This document shows positions 4,957 through 22,761 of a stretch of 22,761 nucleotides of DNA, piece after piece. The position numbers were made by a program, and so were the translations under genes. The notes below the pieces were generated by a model. That model was not told where the DNA came from. It worked only from the letters and a program-made list of their open reading frames with translations, and did not search any database. Origin of the DNA: a virus; the IMG/VR virus record IMGVR_UViG_3300036652_000499, positions 1 through 22,761 of that record, one strand, 5' to 3'. Numbering within the stretch: the stretch's first letter is position 1; each line of letters starts with the position of its first letter.

Positions 4957-6775
4957 ATGCACACTCAAATGCTATGACGCTCGGCTGGAAGTCAGCGTGA
5001 ATAGCGAAAGCGCTGGTGGTGCCGCTTCCGTTCGGTCTTGCATTGAAGTAATAGATTGTTTGTGACGGAACGGTTACTGGGCTGGTTATACTAATGTTTG
5101 CCATAGCCTCAGCTATGCCAATAAAGTACATATTGGTATAGAATGGCGACGTGGACGACAATGAAGCACTCGTAGTAGAAAGGTCGAAACTGTTATTTAT
5201 ACTGCCCGAAGCATACCTTGTGTAATTATTCATCTGTATCATGCCAACCCACTCACCTGTTGGCACGGATAGTTGGGCGTTCATCCACTTGCTTGTCCCC
5301 TGCGCGACTGCCCCTTGGTCGAGGAAAGCAAGATACAGTGACGATACTGTCCACTTATCCGACCCTGCCGGGAAACCGAACGGTGTACGACTAACTGAGT
5401 ACTGCGGTGTGTTCAATGTCATATTTGGAATAGTGCATTGCTTACCCGTAAACATGGTGATCGTGGAACTTGTAATAGCGGTGATAATGCCGTACTCGGT
5501 GGCGTTGTAGGGGTTGGCGGCCTGGGTCGCAATCGCTCCACCGCCGGCCGTCAGGGTGTTAGCGTTGCTCGTCAGGTCGTTGAAGTTGCCACCGCCTTTG
5601 AAGAGTGCCACCAGGTTAGTCTCTGAACCGGTAAGGTTGATAGCCATGTTCGCTTGGATATTGGCTTGGGTCTGGCCGACTGACCAGACACGTACTTCCG
5701 ATAGATAACCGTTAAAAAATGAACTGGCAACGCCAGCGTTAGCTGCACCCATCGACAGGTTATTGGCTTGAGTGACGGTTGACGCAGCCGACGAAGCTAC
5801 ATTAGAGGCGATATTCGTACCATTCATATAGATAGCCATTGATTTAGTTGAAGCGTTAGTAACAGCAAAAGCTATATGCGTCCAAGTCTTTAGAGGTACG
5901 GACTGGTAGGAATCTATCTCGGTAAAAACACTAGAACCACCATAAAAACCCTTGATTTGACCGCTTGGCTTAATGACTAATGCCCATCCGCTAGTAATAG
6001 CGTCCGAACGACTAACAATATATTGGTCGCCTGATAGATATGAGTTCAGATACACCCACGCCTCACAAGTAAAGGCACTGGTGAAAGTTATACCGCTCGG
6101 ACTACTTTTGGTGGCGTACTGGTTGCTGGCCGAAGCGAACGCCATACACTGTGTCGGAGGAGTTACGCTACGAGATACCTTGACTTTCATTCCAGGGCTA
6201 AGAACGCCGGTCTGGTCAGTGCCAGTCGTGACGACGAACTCTCTGTTCCCGTTATTCGCGCTATAGGTAAGTGTCGTACCTATCGTGTTCCATCCCTGGG
6301 TGATCTGATTAGAGGTGATCGTACCGGATACGGTCAGATTACCCGTGATCGTAGCGTTGCCTGCGATACTCAGATTCGAGTTACCGGTAATCGTACCGGT
6401 TGCGGTCAGTGTACCGACCGTAATGTTACCGAAACTACCGCTGAAGGTAGCGTTGTTTATTGTCGGTGAGTTGATTATGGGATTGTTAATCGTCGGCGTG
6501 TTCTGCAGCACGAAAGCTCCGGTGCCGGTCGTGCTACCAGCGAACGTCGCGCTTATAGGCTGCCAACTGGTGCTAGTCCCGTTGCTGGTCAGGACGCTAT
6601 TAGGGTTTCCGGTAGGGTCACTTGCTCCGATACCTACCTTTGTCTCCAGCGCAATGACGGCTTCATTCTGCAGGCTCTGGCCATCAGCAAGGCTCGGGCT
6701 GTCGGTGTCGTCAGTCGAGGATGGGTTCGGGAGGCTGGTGCCATTGTCGATGGAAGTTGGGTAGTTGATTGCCAT
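4949..6775 (-). CDS. Tail fibre or receptor-binding protein with a LamG-like domain
   Basis: The 608-residue protein has three parts. Residues 1-52 (NYPTSIDNGTSLPNPSSTDDTDSPSLADGQ..., then NEAVIALETKVGIGAS) are shared with the fibre genes at 7695 and 8564 and probably form the attachment or trimer-initiation module. Residues about 85-160 are TPTINNP/TITGNLTVSG-type repeats, typical of a fibrous beta shaft. Residues about 205-375 look like a laminin-G/concanavalin-like lectin domain: CMAFASASNQYATK, FTCEAWVYLNS, WTHIAFAVTN, MAIYMNGT and FNGYLSEVRVWS are its recognisable strands. The ATG at 6775 has an AAGGA Shine-Dalgarno 8 bases upstream. Carbohydrate binding at the host surface is the usual role of LamG domains in phage fibres; the ligand is unknown. 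Confidence 0.8.
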   Translation of the reverse strand: MAINYPTSIDNGTSLPNPSSTDDTDSPSLADGQSLQNEAVIALETKVGIGASDPTGNPNSVLTSNGTSTSWQPISATFAGSTTGTGAFVLQNTPTINNPIINSPTINNATFSGSFGNITVGTLTATGTITGNSNLSIAGNATITGNLTVSGTITSNQITQGWNTIGTTLTYSANNGNREFVVTTGTDQTGVLSPGMKVKVSRSVTPPTQCMAFASASNQYATKSSPSGITFTSAFTCEAWVYLNSYLSGDQYIVSRSDAITSGWALVIKPSGQIKGFYGGSSVFTEIDSYQSVPLKTWTHIAFAVTNASTKSMAIYMNGTNIASNVASSAASTVTQANNLSMGAANAGVASSFFNGYLSEVRVWSVGQTQANIQANMAINLTGSETNLVALFKGGGNFNDLTSNANTLTAGGGAIATQAANPYNATEYGIITAITSSTITMFTGKQCTIPNMTLNTPQYSVSRTPFGFPAGSDKWTVSSLYLAFLDQGAVAQGTSKWMNAQLSVPTGEWVGMIQMNNYTRYASGSINNSFDLSTTSASLSSTSPFYTNMYFIGIAEAMANISITSPVTVPSQTIYYFNARPNGSGTTSAFAIHADFQPSVIAFECAYV

Positions 6776-11211: not shown

Positions 11212-11792
11212 GTCTCGACGCCAAGCTCCTTGGCCATAGCTTTGAGTTCTGATTCAACGTCTACCGGCTTTTGCGTAGTCGGTAATTCTACCTTTCCGTC
11301 TGCATAACTTGGTGTACCAAAGCTAGGGTTCTCGACACTGACAAATATTCTGTCGATCCAGGCTTCCTGCTGATCTCCGTCTGCCCAGTTAATAGGGATG
11401 TCTCCGAGTTTGCTCTTAACTGCTTCGTCTGGGCTCATGCCCTGGCGTCGGGAGAGAGCGATCTTCGCTTTCAGTTTTCGGTATAACTTCTCGATCATCA
11501 GTTGGGCGTTCCATCCCTCTAGCACTAAGCTTTGTCCGGGACCGATACGGTAGAGTCTAGGATTACCGCGCGAAGTGTTCTTCATCGGGCCTCGGTCTAT
11601 GAAGTAACTCTCGGTCTTTGGATCAAGGGCCTGCCAGGTGAACTCTTCGCTATCAGGATTGATGACCCGTACAAAATCATTCGCACTGAACCTCTTCTCT
11701 AAGCGTTCCCTGAATGTTGCTTGGTCTGGGCTGGATGCTACGTAACCGCCCTTAGTGAGTTCTTGACCGGTATACACAGAATCTTCTGGCAT
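11208..11792 (-). CDS. Hypothetical protein of the virion block
   Basis: The 194-residue soluble protein has a globular mixed alpha/beta body: NDFVRVINPDSEEFTWQALDPKTESYFIDRGPMKNTSRGNPRLYRIGPGQSLVLEGWNAQLMIEKLYRKLKAKIAL. Its C-terminal part is Pro/Thr-rich and ends in a short helix. The 'FTWQ...D...R....G....Y.IGPGQ..VLEGWNA' segment looks conserved, but I cannot attach a family to it. The start overlaps the previous stop (TAATG) and its stop overlaps the next start (ATGA), so it sits in the middle of a three-gene coupled set with two coiled-coil proteins. Confidence 0.6.
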   Translation of the reverse strand: MPEDSVYTGQELTKGGYVASSPDQATFRERLEKRFSANDFVRVINPDSEEFTWQALDPKTESYFIDRGPMKNTSRGNPRLYRIGPGQSLVLEGWNAQLMIEKLYRKLKAKIALSRRQGMSPDEAVKSKLGDIPINWADGDQQEAWIDRIFVSVENPSFGTPSYADGKVELPTTQKPVDVESELKAMAKELGVET

Positions 11793-18115: not shown

Positions 18116-18168
18116 CGCAATGGCTTCGTAATCGATGGCAGTTTTCCTTCCGTACCTCTGTTAGAAAC

Positions 18169-18192
18169 AAAAAAGACAGCGTGCGCTGTCTT
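18169..18192 (-). terminator. Intrinsic terminator ending the structured RNA
   Basis: An 8-bp perfect stem on the minus strand (18185-18192 with 18173-18180, 4-base loop) is followed by six T (18174-18169). It lies between the structured RNA and the portal start and would end a transcript from the promoter at 18829 after about 650 nt. Confidence 0.85.
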
Positions 18193-18823
18193 AATGCGTG
18201 GTATGGGTTTATCGTACCACTTATGTTCCATCCCCGCTACCGGTCACCTGACCCCATACCCGGTAAATAAAAATAAGGGTCTTAATAAATAAGTTTCTTC
18301 GATTGTGAGAACCGGCGCGTTCGGCCAGCGCATTGTCGGTTCGGTCTGACGTGTAACTATGTGAAGTCTTCGATTCTGAGTTGTGCTTAATGCTTAAGTT
18401 GTCGTACTTACGCCTTACCCGCTTGGCTACCGGCCCCATCGTGGGGGGCCGGACAGGATTCGAACCTGCGATCTTAAGTGCCTTAAGACAAGTAATCTTT
18501 CACGATTGCATTGTGAAATGTTGGTGTAGAACACACTGCGGGCCCGCTGTGCATAGGCATTTAGGGCAGCCTTCCAATGCCCGATATGAGCCGTCAGATG
18601 GCCGGAGGTGGGGATGGAATTGTAAAGGTGCAAATTCCCTGGGACGACTACTAAACCGGAACGATATTTCGTTCAGGGTGCTAACTGGATTAAGCACCCC
18701 TTCCTAGAGTATGGACCACGTTTCCCAGGAACTCAGGCTGGTAGACCAGTAGTTCTCATTTAACAGTCACCGTGCGCTGGACTCATCCCCGCTACGCCCA
18801 CAAGGTTGGTTTGACTGCACCTG
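18193..18823 (-). ncRNA. Large structured non-coding RNA containing a permuted tRNA body
   Basis: About 700 bases between the SPFH and portal genes hold no credible protein frame, but a promoter (18829-18858), a terminator (18169-18192) and many complementary segments. Pairings seen on the minus strand run 5' to 3'. A 7-bp helix joins 18816-18822 to 18626-18632. CAGTCA/TGACTG pairs lie inside it. A hairpin GGGTGCT/AGCACCC lies near 18670-18700 and GAACGA/TCGTTC near 18659-18674. Flank-to-flank helices enclose the tRNA: 18610-18619 with 18226-18235 (10 bp), 18599-18603 with 18323-18327 (5 bp), 18592-18598 with 18345-18351 (7 bp) and 18487-18491 with 18399-18403 (5 bp). These four are nested in the correct order, which is unlikely by chance. 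No known class (RNase P, tmRNA, group I intron) fits on its conserved motifs. An ornate large phage RNA of unknown function is the best description. Confidence 0.7.
18406..18479 (-). tRNA. Circularly permuted tRNA body (3' half precedes 5' half)
   Basis: Reading the minus strand, 18479-18442 carries anticodon-stem strand ACTTA, variable loop AGATC, T-arm GCAGG-TTCGAAT-CCTGT, acceptor strand CCGGCCC, C73 and an encoded CCA. After only CGAT (18441-18438) comes 18437-18406: G-1, acceptor strand GGGCCGG, U8, A9, D-arm GCC-AAGCGGGTAA-GGC, G26 and anticodon-stem strand TAAGT. The acceptor pairs over 7 bp plus G-1:C73, and the anticodon stem pairs over 5 of 5. U8-A14, G15-C48, G18G19 and the T-loop UUCGAA are in place. 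No conventional partner half for either piece exists nearby. G-1:C73 is the histidine hallmark, but no GUG anticodon is visible. The loop is interrupted: AC on the 5' piece and TTAAGGC on the 3' piece, followed by a further 5-bp helix. Confidence 0.8.
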
Positions 18824-18828
18824 ATACG

Positions 18829-18858
18829 ATTATACTATCTACTTACCTTGCAGGTTAA
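18829..18858 (-). promoter_or_regulatory. Promoter for the structured RNA with permuted tRNA
   Basis: A perfect TATAAT (18834-18829) lies five bases after the SPFH stop codon. TTAACC (18858-18853) is placed 18 bases upstream inside the end of that gene. The predicted start near 18822 coincides with the first strand of the RNA's 7-bp long-range helix (18816-18822). Confidence 0.6.
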
Positions 18859-19594
18859 TCCCAAAGATTGTTCCACTGCCTACGGAGTTCGGCATTGCAC
18901 CGTTCCACTTAGCAATGGCTTGCTGCTCCAGGATAGCTGGTGTTAGCGCAGCGTCCTGGACGGCGTTGGCCTGAGCGTTAAGCTGAGACTGCTGAAGTTT
19001 GTACTGGGCAGCAGCGACGTTTTGGGCTTCTACCTGCTTGTTCTCGATAGCAGCTGTGTATTGTGGGCTGAAAGAGAAGTTCACGATCGAGAAGTTATCG
19101 ACCGTGACACCTCGGTTGGTCAGCGCCTTGGTCAGATCGCTGAGCGTTTGCGCTTCCACCTTTGATCGCTGGTCGATAAGATCGGTTGCGTTGTACTGGC
19201 TGGTAACCGCCTTAACAGTCTCCTGCAAGATCGGGTCTATCACCACGCTGTCGTACTGAGTGCCGACGTTCTTATAGATATCGTTAGCGGTCTTAGGAGT
19301 CAGGTTGAAGTTCAAGGCTACGGTGGCGGTGACGGTCTGGAGGTCCTGGGTGGCAGCAGTAGCATCAACCTGGACTTTCTGGTTCTGGACACTCATACCG
19401 GTCACCGTTTCCCAAGGCGGAATGAAATGCAGTCCGCTACTGACCTCTCCTTTGACATTGCCATAGCTGGAAATGATTCCGACTTGCCCGACCGCTACGG
19501 ACCGAATACAAGTAAGAAGACGCACAACCACAATAAGCATAATAATGCTGCTAATTGCCACCAAAACCACTTTCTTGGGGTTCGGTTCATTCAT
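18839..19594 (-). CDS. SPFH/Band 7 (stomatin-prohibitin-like) membrane protein
   Basis: The 251-residue protein has one N-terminal membrane helix (residues about 8-30, KVVLVAISSIIMLIVVVRLLTCI). A Band 7 domain follows: SVAVGQVGIISSYGNVKGEVSSGLHFIPPWETVTGMSVQNQKVQVDATAATQDLQTVTATVALNFNL, then VIDPILQETVKAVTSQYNATDLIDQRSKVEAQTLSDLTKALTNRGVTVDNFSIVNFSFSPQYTAAIENKQVEAQNVAAA. The GLHF..PW, TxDLQTV, LN(F/V), ATDLIDQR and 'GV.V..FSI.N..FSP.Y..AIE.KQ.A.Q' motifs are those of prohibitin-like proteins. The C-terminus is a Gln/Ala-rich helix suited to oligomer rings. Such proteins form membrane microdomain scaffolds. Here the gene lies inside the terminase-portal interval, so it may reshape the host membrane or protect against host membrane proteases or defence; that is inference. 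Confidence 0.85.
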   Translation of the reverse strand: MNEPNPKKVVLVAISSIIMLIVVVRLLTCIRSVAVGQVGIISSYGNVKGEVSSGLHFIPPWETVTGMSVQNQKVQVDATAATQDLQTVTATVALNFNLTPKTANDIYKNVGTQYDSVVIDPILQETVKAVTSQYNATDLIDQRSKVEAQTLSDLTKALTNRGVTVDNFSIVNFSFSPQYTAAIENKQVEAQNVAAAQYKLQQSQLNAQANAVQDAALTPAILEQQAIAKWNGAMPNSVGSGTIFGINLQGK

Positions 19595-19982: not shown

Positions 19983-20207
19983 TATTCTGTGTATAAATTT
20001 ACAACGATGACAGATATGTTGAAGATAGGTGTCTCCGGTCCTCACCGTCTGGTATGGCATACCGGCACTGGTGGTCCAGGTAACAAGTCTCCCTTTAATG
20101 GTGAGAATAGTATTGCCACAGTGGATGCAATGGATCGGTTCGGTTGTAGAGCCGGGATAATCGTAGATGTAACCGGTCAAGATGTTGGGAAATTGTTGGG
20201 AGATCAT
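19962..20207 (-). CDS. Small zinc-ribbon protein (Com-like)
   Basis: The 81-residue protein contains two Cys pairs, CIHC and CHRC, about 40 residues apart, in a layout typical of a zinc ribbon (EPIHCIHCGNTILTIKGRLVTWT ... YLQHICHRCKFIHRIL). This resembles the Com-like zinc-finger proteins of phages, which act on RNA or DNA. The ATG at 20207 overlaps the TGA of the terminase gene (ATGA) and has AGAGG upstream. An in-frame ATG at 20219 lacks a usable Shine-Dalgarno. It could regulate translation of neighbouring late genes, but a purely structural role is also possible. Confidence 0.6.
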   Translation of the reverse strand: MISQQFPNILTGYIYDYPGSTTEPIHCIHCGNTILTIKGRLVTWTTSAGMPYQTVRTGDTYLQHICHRCKFIHRILVQQVY

Positions 20208-21679
20208 CGATACAGCCATCCTCTGTCATTACCTTCACCGACTTTAGTAGTCGCTTTTAGCATCTTAGATATATCAATATCATGGTATAACTGTCCATCT
20301 TCCACAAGATATCCTTTCTTTACGTCATCTTGGTATCTCTTTGGTGAAATAATCTCCGCCTGGCCGTGGATGCGCGGGATAGCGTATAAGCAGTAACCGA
20401 TCGAGTTCTCAGCGTGATCTTCCTGGTGGTCGGCAATCTTTTCGGGACGTTTGTCGTCGGCAGCAAGCATCGGAAGGGTTCGGATTAAGTTGAGGCAGGA
20501 TTCATGGAAGTGGAGTTTCGGGCGCTGCAGGTGCGTTTCAGCCAGCAGTTCGTGTAGGAGCGTCTGCCGACCGATCATGTCAGCTGTGGTACCGCCGGGG
20601 GCCCTTACTAGACGTACTTTTATCTTGCGTCGTTCGAAGACTGCCTTAAACTGGTCTACGATCGGTCGGGTACCTCCAAGATTGCTGAATGTGTCATGTG
20701 GCATGGCGATAAAGTCGACGGGTTCCCTGTCTAATATGTCAGCTATCTTCTCTGCCCACGCCTCTGGCCTTATCTGGGAACCGTACATCTCGCGGTAGAC
20801 GTAGTAATGCTTACCGTCCTCCAGTTCCGGGGTCTCAGCGATCCAGTATATAGCCGTTGGGTCATTGTAACCCCAGTCGAGACCGATATACCGATGGCAT
20901 TCGTCGATATCAATAGGAGAATCGTGGTACACGTGCTTCTTGTAGTCGAACTCCGGGTAGAACTGACCCTGGAAAACACTCCAATCACCGTCCCTGAGGG
21001 CTGATCTCAGCCGTGGGTCAGCGATTGCATCGAGTACATCATGCTTATACCTTGTACGAAATGCTTCGTCCGGGTGGTCGTCGATTTTAGCAGGTATAAA
21101 TTGGCGCGTAAGCCCGGTGTCGGGGTCTTTGTAGACGTGATTCGGCGGCATGACGTCCATGAAGTAGGATTTGATCCAGCCGTGCCCGATGTTACCGGGG
21201 TTGCTGGTAAGCATTATCCGTAATCGTCGGTTTCCCATGCTTCTTACGCGTGTTTTCAGGTAATCGTACTCGTCTTTACTGAAGTGGGTCGCTTCGTCGA
21301 TTAATAACGAGTGGATTTCAGCTGACTGGTATCGGTACATGTCACCTGGATCATCGAGATAAGCGAGCTGGAGCTCGGAGCCGTTATCGAACTTGAAGGT
21401 ACGCTCGTTGGCCGAATATGGCATGTGGCTGAGGTAGGCAGCACACTGCTTTTTGATCTCCGGAACGATGCTCTGCCTGATTTCAGGGATGGTACGCCGG
21501 AAGATATACGTACGGTGCCCTGGATCCTCTAAGCAAGAGGTGACGGCTTCAGCGACGAGAGCGGCGCTTTTCCCGCCGCCTGCGGCTCCCCCGTAGAACG
21601 TTTCGTAGGCCGGGCTCGCGAGGAATTGGGTCTGCTTCGCGCTCGGCGTGAAGTCTGGAACACGGATGGGCTCGCTCAT
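20204..21679 (-). CDS. terL: Terminase large subunit (packaging ATPase and nuclease)
   Basis: The 491-residue protein has all the expected parts. A Q-motif-like PSAKQTQFL lies at 12-20 and Walker A GGAAGGGKS at 30-38. Walker B LLIDE is at 125-129, with catalytic Glu129. A coupling motif, LTSNPG, lies near 158. The C-terminal RNase H-like nuclease has YIGLDWGYNDPTA with its first Asp near 270, IAMPHD near 330 and an ENSIGYCLYA segment near 445. It would drive DNA into the capsid through the portal and cut the concatemer. No Shine-Dalgarno is obvious at 21679; a TATAGT box lies about 20 bases upstream, so the leader is short. It is divergent from the small subunit candidate. Confidence 0.95.
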   Translation of the reverse strand: MSEPIRVPDFTPSAKQTQFLASPAYETFYGGAAGGGKSAALVAEAVTSCLEDPGHRTYIFRRTIPEIRQSIVPEIKKQCAAYLSHMPYSANERTFKFDNGSELQLAYLDDPGDMYRYQSAEIHSLLIDEATHFSKDEYDYLKTRVRSMGNRRLRIMLTSNPGNIGHGWIKSYFMDVMPPNHVYKDPDTGLTRQFIPAKIDDHPDEAFRTRYKHDVLDAIADPRLRSALRDGDWSVFQGQFYPEFDYKKHVYHDSPIDIDECHRYIGLDWGYNDPTAIYWIAETPELEDGKHYYVYREMYGSQIRPEAWAEKIADILDREPVDFIAMPHDTFSNLGGTRPIVDQFKAVFERRKIKVRLVRAPGGTTADMIGRQTLLHELLAETHLQRPKLHFHESCLNLIRTLPMLAADDKRPEKIADHQEDHAENSIGYCLYAIPRIHGQAEIISPKRYQDDVKKGYLVEDGQLYHDIDISKMLKATTKVGEGNDRGWLYR

Positions 21680-21769
21680 TGCTTACAGTTTATGACATAC
21701 TATACATAATGAATAGGCAAGCCAAGCGAGATAGGGCACTTGCTATATTAGGAAACAGGTGTGTGCGAA

Positions 21770-22225
21770 ATGGCGAGCGATAAGAAAGCCAAGGCAAGGT
21801 TCAGAGGCCACAAAGAACATCCGACACCGAAACAGCGGGCAGCCGTCGATGCGTTTTTGGCACACCCAGGAGACAGCTCATCTAAGAATATAAAGCGGGC
21901 TGGCTATTCGGTACCGAAGAATGTGACCGGTGTCATGGCAGCGCAGGTCACCCAGACGATAGGCTTTCAGGAGCTGCTGAACGAGCGCGTACCGGACGAT
22001 AAGCTGGCTGATCTCATCTCGGCTGGGATGCAGGCAGAGAAGCCGCCTGCAGGCTTTGAGGACTTCGTACCCGATTGGGGCAACCGGTTTAAGTTCGTGG
22101 AGCTGGTAACGCGGCTGAAGGGCTACGGTAAGGTCGATGCCCCGACCGTGAATGTACAGTTCACGAACGCGATCCCCCGGCCGGAGCCTATTGAGGGCGA
22201 AGTTGTAGATAATACATCCCTATAA
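21770..22225 (+). CDS. Terminase small subunit-like DNA-binding protein
   Basis: The 151-residue protein has an N-terminal helix-turn-helix-like region: TPKQRAAVDAFLAHPGDSSSKNIKRAGYSVPKNVTGVMAAQVTQTIGFQELLNE. The pattern, with 'AGYS' before the recognition helix and a following helical segment, is that of small terminases and related HTH proteins. A long helical part follows, ending in an acidic tail (PIEGEVVDNTSL) of a kind that can contact TerL. The ATG at 21770 was preferred because AGGTG lies 8 bases upstream; GTG at 21761 is an alternative, with AGGA five bases away. It is on the opposite strand to terL and separated from it by about 90 bases. This fits the call, but another DNA-binding protein cannot be excluded. 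Confidence 0.7.
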   Translation: MASDKKAKARFRGHKEHPTPKQRAAVDAFLAHPGDSSSKNIKRAGYSVPKNVTGVMAAQVTQTIGFQELLNERVPDDKLADLISAGMQAEKPPAGFEDFVPDWGNRFKFVELVTRLKGYGKVDAPTVNVQFTNAIPRPEPIEGEVVDNTSL

Positions 22226-22308
22226 ATATGAGAAAACCCCTGTTTCCAGGGGCACTTCAACTTGTTATTCTCATTGATATATTATCACGGCTGTGTCATA
22301 TTACAAGC
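22226..22308 (+). other. Non-coding leader region with hairpin and short direct repeat
   Basis: A 6-bp hairpin with a TTTC loop (22237-22252) follows the TerS stop. On the minus strand it is followed by TTTTCTC and could terminate leftward transcripts; on the plus strand the tail is not T-rich. A direct repeat, ACTTCAACT(T)GTTATTC, occurs at 22254-22270 and again at 22313-22328. No protein frame was seen. Confidence 0.45.
22274..22302 (+). promoter_or_regulatory. Promoter for the right-end structured RNA
   Basis: TTGATA (22274-22279) and CATATT (22297-22302) are separated by 17 bases on the plus strand. The predicted start near 22309 is the first base of the 5' hairpin (AATAAC/GTTATT) of the structured region that follows. 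Confidence 0.5.
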
Positions 22309-22755
22309 AATAACTTCAACTGTTATTCATCTAGGCAGCCCTACAGTTGGGCAAAGGGGGATGTAAAACTACCTGGATAGGGGAAAAGATCCCGATCACT
22401 CGCAAGAGCACAAACTGTACTACGCCAGCCCGGTGGCGGTAACCGGGCCTCTGCACTTCATCGCATGACGCGTACATTAACAAACCGAGCGGTACCAAAC
22501 AGTAGAAATACTGGAACCCCAATTTTCTTCGATCATTACTTGTTTTAAGAAAGGGCTTCAAGGCACCCTCCACCAGCTCTCTACCTTCATCAGGCTAGGG
22601 AACCGGCGAATATCGAAGAACTCCGCCATGAAGGTAGAGTTGCATCAGTAAGGTGCCTCCAGCCGTAAGGCTATGAAAAAGAGAGGCTTATTTGACGTGG
22701 GAAAGGGATTGTTTTGTTATTTGTTAGGTACTTAAGCTGGAGGGTCTTTTTTATT
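22309..22755 (+). ncRNA. Structured non-coding RNA beside the terminase genes
   Basis: About 445 bases without a credible gene are dense in complementary segments on the plus strand. A 5' hairpin AATAAC/GTTATT (22309-22327) comes first. A GCCC/GGGC hairpin (22338-22352) follows, and its loop ACAGTT can pair with AACTGT at 22413-22418, forming a pseudoknot. Next are a CTC-GCAA-GAG hairpin (near 22400), CCCGGT/ACCGGG (22429-22434 with 22442-22447) and a CAGTA-GAAA-TACTG hairpin (near 22500). A 12-bp perfect stem, 22579-22590 with 22628-22639, is enclosed by 7 bp at 22561-22567 with 22652-22658. AGCC-GTAA-GGCT lies at 22661-22672. GCTGGAGG (22736-22743), complementary to 22656-22663, precedes TCTTTTTT. 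Three GNRA loops all read on the plus strand, which fixes the orientation. No known class was recognised. Confidence 0.6.
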
Positions 22756-22761
22756 TCTGTG

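Follow-up and report, generated by a model that had tools for sequence, protein, structure and literature searches.

On the evidence of its sequence and of its homologs, RNA2 is a conserved, noncoding structured RNA that ends in a terminator, a description which covers its strand, its noncoding status, its termination signal and its multi-helix architecture. It is very probably a genuine RNA gene on the minus strand. RNA2 occurs in a 22.8-kb linear IMG/VR phage fragment (the window, that is, the whole stretch of DNA analysed), between the end of the small-terminase-like gene and the contig end (Table 1). The portal and adaptor proteins of this phage are SU10-like, its capsid protein is of podovirus type, and its structural genes are on the minus strand. 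A family search with the small-terminase-like protein gave no match; in L037 a homolog of the gene is situated immediately 5' of a large terminase gene.

An earlier note on this DNA had described a plus-strand structured RNA at 22309-22755, possibly linked to packaging. Its observations were borne out as regards the lack of coding, the lack of a known class and the stems, and not as regards the strand, promoter, T-run, GNRA loops and pseudoknot. Its interpretation as an unclassified structured RNA is supported by a full-length homolog and by covariation; the plus strand, promoter, pseudoknot and packaging role are not.

Table 1. Features of RNA2 and the adjoining terminase genes (window coordinates)
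Feature	Position	Strand	Remarks
Large terminase gene	20204-21679	minus	Terminase_3/Terminase_6N matches
Small-terminase-like gene	21761-22225	plus	Divergent from large terminase gene
RNA2, structured noncoding RNA	22232-22700	minus	Conserved CCACG motif through terminator; homolog aligned over 5' and 3' domains
P1, GCCUCU/GGAGGC	22655-22687 (22687-22682/22660-22655)	minus	Excludes P0
P2 hairpin, AGCC-UUAC-GGCU	22661-22672	minus	Three double changes relative to G395
P0 outer stem, GAGGCACCU/GGGUGCCUU	22560-22659 (22659-22651/22568-22560)	minus	The 7-bp stem of the earlier note, longer on minus
P3, 12-bp stem	22579-22639 (22639-22628/22590-22579)	minus	Two short capping hairpins, 22627-22605 and 22604-22593
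Conserved element, GGUUUGUUAAUGU	22474-22486	minus	10-nt block identical in G395; UUGUUAA common to G005
H1, 8-bp hairpin, GGCCCGGU/ACCGGGCU	22427-22449 (22449-22442/22434-22427)	minus	Followed by conserved (A/G)GC element
H2 hairpin, UGCUC-UUGC-GAGUG	22397-22410	minus	UGCUC...GAGUG kept in G395 with two extra base pairs
CCAGGUA-UUU...CCCCUUU element and 13-bp G.U-rich helix	22326-22376 (helix 22374-22362/22345-22333)	minus	Pair probability 0.98
Intrinsic terminator, GCCCCUG-GAAA-CAGGGGU-UUUC	22232-22253 (hairpin 22253-22236)	minus	Terminator scan

Coding content, strand and ends of RNA2

The RNA2 region specifies no credible protein. Its ORFs, of 80 aa (minus) and 50 aa (plus), scored -0.47 in a hexamer coding test in which whole genes scored +0.04 to +0.57, and the 80-aa ORF matched no protein family, in agreement with the protein-free character claimed earlier. 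The lack of a recognised class was likewise upheld: neither 21600-22761 nor 22226-22761 gave a match to Rfam 15 at gathering or at E<=10 on either strand, the models for ROOL, GOLLD, OLE, self-splicing introns (group I/II) and ribozymes included. There are no tRNA genes in the window or in the relatives scanned, G395 having lacked a separate scan.

The minus strand of RNA2 folds with a free energy of -162 kcal/mol and a z-score of -4.0 (-3.4 to -4.2 across runs), compared with -139.5 kcal/mol and -2.3 for the plus strand of the same bases. When 150 windows of 470 nt were surveyed on both strands, the two highest-ranking were the gap at 18160 and the RNA2 region on the minus strand (z -4.2, versus -1.6 on plus); these two starts and one more were hand-placed on elements, the others lying on a regular grid. 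The high-confidence pairs of RNA2 include 13 G.U pairs on the minus strand versus 2 on the plus, and all three of its domains and its terminator are more stable on minus than on plus.

The sole terminator-like site is on the minus strand, directly 3' of the structured region and convergent with the small terminase gene. Taken alone it is not beyond chance; the homolog in G395 carries a terminator (GGCCCACGAAACGGGCC-UUUUU) at the same place. RNA2 reaches past the start first proposed, to the terminator at 22236. Within the contig no minus-strand promoter is evident; the 5' end of RNA2 may be near, or past, position 22761, where the contig stops. We put the size of RNA2 at about 470-520 nt.

Homologs and conserved helices

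A full-length homolog of 523 nt was found in G395 (IMGVR_UViG_3300037418_002375, 5947-6469, plus strand) when the search was extended from capsid-related loci to the complete records containing them. This is a 41.9-kb record whose capsid protein is 63% identical to that of the window. The nhmmer alignment covers 253 positions and reaches into the terminator in both phages (E 4e-8 in 2.2 Mb). The 5' domain aligns separately, over 76 columns, with a score of 20, the best of 1000 shuffles scoring 17, and therefore the whole element is homologous. The G395 copy has a z-score of -3.1 on the homologous strand versus -1.4 on the opposite one, and matches no Rfam family, the one match being unrelated at E=5. 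Its orientation to the late genes is that seen in the window.

A third copy is probably held by G005, where R3, a covariance model built on the 85 central columns, matched the central hairpin at L021 10836-10911 (19.1 bits, E 0.1). This candidate lies at 36.2 kb, on the capsid gene's strand and near the contig end. The H1 loop CACAAGCC occurs 56 times in the sequences gathered, and within a stem of at least 6 bp only in G395 and G005. At the terminator position G005 has a GC-rich hairpin with a poor U-run. Its membership is probable, not certain, because the flanking 3' similarity is weak, about 6% of shuffles being as good. The comparison set consists of two full-length sequences (window and G395) and one partial (G005).

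Most relatives searched carry no detectable copy. Blastn in 'distant' mode against phages and plasmids gave nothing, or chance matches only; a search led by the TerS protein yielded no relatives, and those led by TerL and MCP yielded relatives with no RNA2 in the first flanks examined. A covariance model made from a single 5'-domain sequence matched no sequence but its own. Several candidates were discarded. Exact 16-mer scans of viral contigs produced 44 loci, of which the best-looking, L188, falls inside a coding gene. The motif TTAGGTACTTAA near 22724, common to G002 and G003, is close to chance level. R3 matches across 380 small bacterial genomes (E 0.01-0.09 each) are at chance level, and a weak match in L117 was not supported.

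The covariance analysis proposed earlier was carried out on these related contigs, and compensatory changes were found in several helices (H1, P1, P2 and, with one, P3). P1 reads GCCCUU/AAGGGU in G395, with two double and two single compensations and all six positions paired. P2 becomes CCGC-AUUA-GCGG; these three double changes rest on a one-column hand shift from the automatic alignment. P3 is the longest perfect stem, exceeding 60 of 60 shuffles (maximum 10 bp), and keeps 10 of its 12 pairs in G395 with one double change and one G.U. It is enclosed by P0, where 17 of 18 cells (window and G395) are paired and variation is exclusively through G.U. Both stems, which the earlier note had reported, recur in G395. 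Minimum-energy folds of the two sequences each independently place P2 directly before P0, and P0 around P3. Farther 3', H1 has double changes in six of eight pairs over three sequences, 95.8% of cells being paired. CCAGGUA and CCCCUUU are identical in G395, and the 13-bp helix is only partly kept there.

With three sequences, just 1 of 500 shuffles was as good as H1, and slid versions were 25-38% paired. For two sequences the shuffles are a weak control: 55-78 of 500 were as good for P1 plus P3 and for H1, and 253 of 500 for P0 plus P3. The slid controls, which lose pairing, are more telling. Several of the fold-level similarities are based on pairwise alignment. In each phage P1 and P0 have bases in common, so that at most one of them forms at once. 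This overlap, being kept in both, may represent a switch between two folds, or one of the two helices may simply not be real.

Known RNAs and other structured RNAs of these phages

ROOL and GOLLD are large ornate RNAs of phages and prophages (PMC12286853). They are the natural comparison class for RNA2, which is also large, protein-free, highly structured and phage-encoded. RNA2 differs from ROOL and GOLLD, which are often near tRNA genes, in its location away from tRNAs, its length and its other helix set. Late transcription offers another comparison: the lambda late promoter makes the 6S leader RNA, and HK022 has put antiterminator RNAs. Like these, RNA2 is structured, terminator-ended and upstream of late genes on the same strand; unlike them, it is longer, has an opposite-strand gene between itself and the late genes in the window, and comes with no antitermination factor that we could identify.

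The window encodes a second structured RNA, RNA1, in the other noncoding gap (18165-18824, minus). RNA1 contains a tRNA-like module in circularly permuted order (T-arm, acceptor, CCA, acceptor, D-arm; 18396-18491, minus), which resembles the Y-RNA-like YrlA (Rfam RF02553, 28.1 bits, E 8e-4, below gathering). A TATAAT is found a short way upstream, and there is a strong terminator at about 18190-18168. The same permuted module occurs in L074 (4165-4276), with a perfect 7-bp acceptor and encoded CCA (28.3 bits). A permuted-tRNA scan gave just two matches, L074 and RNA1 (18464, minus), against 0.2 expected, and none in RNA2. Both RNA1 and RNA2 are structured and lie on the late-gene strand of the same phage, but RNA2 has no T-arm/D-arm module and their sequences show no similarity.

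Near their terminase or portal genes, relatives have further structured RNA genes, of which two are related to portions of RNA1. The 5' domain of RNA1 (18725-18824, minus) is common to L014 (9938-10055, plus); the outer helix has double changes in three of five pairs, and an inner helix GCAGUC/GACUGU in the one corresponds to GCAAGC/GCUUGC in the other. In G003 the short terminator-ended RNA of L014 lies directly upstream of a large terminase gene. L022 (1290-1575, plus) holds a structured (z -4.7), terminator-ended, noncoding element in the slot of the L074 tRNA-like RNA, without the tRNA-like module; this slot seems to hold varying RNAs. L014 6050-6330, which separates two divergent genes and is very strongly structured (z -5.2 on plus, -7.3 on minus), is a candidate origin or regulatory RNA. 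Adjoining RNA1 is a gene (18839-19594, minus) for a Band 7/SPFH membrane protein; a 58% identical protein in G002 is encoded downstream of a 970-nt gap with moderate structure (z -2.9, same strand).

Possible roles of RNA2

We lean slightly towards RNA2 being an autonomous, terminator-ended minus-strand phage RNA that acts in trans. It would be transcribed from the same strand as the late structural genes, transcription would stop at its own intrinsic terminator, and it would presumably be released as a discrete stable RNA. By analogy with its kind, it might then act as a scaffold or ribonucleoprotein, rather like ROOL and GOLLD. Granted a genuine minus-strand RNA gene, a trans-acting RNA is, in our estimate, the reasonably probable choice over a leader.

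The strongest rival is, indeed, a late-operon leader, that is, a terminated leader whose structure controls read-through into the downstream genes. In both the window and G395, RNA2 precedes the late genes, lies on the same strand as they do and ends in a terminator, as such a leader would. We nevertheless consider this unlikely: an opposite-strand small terminase gene stands between RNA2 and the first late gene of the window, 470-520 nt is long for such leaders, and the gene downstream of RNA2 is not the same in the two phages. The packaging role suggested earlier from proximity to the terminase, in which RNA2 would work with the terminase in the manner of phi29 pRNA, fares far worse. RNA2 adjoins packaging genes in the window contig only. 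The link is not supported because in G395 RNA2 precedes the late cluster and lies about 5 kb away from the likely terminase genes (the likely small terminase gene is at 11368 and the capsid gene at 18433; the former was called from sequence type, not by family search, and the large terminase was not found by similarity). Nor is it supported in view of the terminase itself, which is an ordinary two-subunit enzyme whose large subunit is of Terminase_3/6N type rather than a gp16 ATPase like that of phi29, and of the absence of any match to the phage pRNA in Rfam. RNA2 is also much longer than phi29 pRNA, with an unrelated fold, and we regard such a role as extremely improbable.

Two readings would deny that there is a minus-strand RNA. 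One is functional DNA, a pac or cos site or a replication origin with many inverted repeats; the location is what might be expected of it, at a contig end and next to the small terminase gene, a position in which pac sites are found. The G.U-dependent strand asymmetry, the covariation, the same-strand terminators of window and G395, the other location in G395 and the lack of iteron-like repeats in a repeat search make it very improbable. The other is the plus-strand RNA of the earlier note, or the 3' UTR of an mRNA for the small terminase. In its favour, the plus strand has a single promoter-like match and three hairpins with GNRA loops. The promoter is a single 9-of-12 match, and 21650-22761 contains 2 such matches versus 1.2 +/- 1.1 in shuffles. 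The T-run has no local hairpin to make it a terminator. The GNRA hairpins have p ~0.04, and the opposite-strand loops of G395 (UAAU, AAC) are not GNRA. As for the pseudoknot, 22343-22348 is complementary to 22413-22418 as claimed, but beyond-chance status and conservation did not follow. Four loop complementarities of that size were observed (overlapping loops counted) against a shuffle mean of 0.9 (p 0.02), and the partners AACUGU/ACAGUU are UAAUGG/AAAGUU in G395, which are not complementary. On the minus strand the loop sits inside the 13-bp helix (P 0.98). With plus-strand z-scores from -0.92 (22309-22755, not better than shuffles) to -2.3, and with the homolog's terminator on the strand homologous to minus, a plus-strand RNA is also quite improbable.

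Regarding hosts, a close homolog of the capsid protein (81%) was found in just one contig from a bacterial genome, L090 (JAJZOE010000032.1). Its MAG is about 0.9 Mb, and phylum-mates are mostly 0.5-1.2 Mb, which suggests small-genome CPR-type hosts; a binning error is possible.

Tentatively, and at somewhat less than even odds in our judgement, the trans-acting RNA preferred here may be the first member to be recognised of a new family of large noncoding RNAs, common to podophage-like phages that possibly infect small-genome (candidate-phyla-radiation-sized) bacteria, and serve as an RNA scaffold or ribonucleoprotein during infection; together with RNA1 this would give two unrelated large structured RNAs in one phage. 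Few large phage noncoding RNAs are known, most of them without an assigned function. RNA2 offers a defined sequence, strand and structure model for one which covaries, is absent from Rfam and has homologs in divergent phages. It indicates that such RNAs evolve fast enough to evade standard searches even though the capsid proteins are 63-68% identical.
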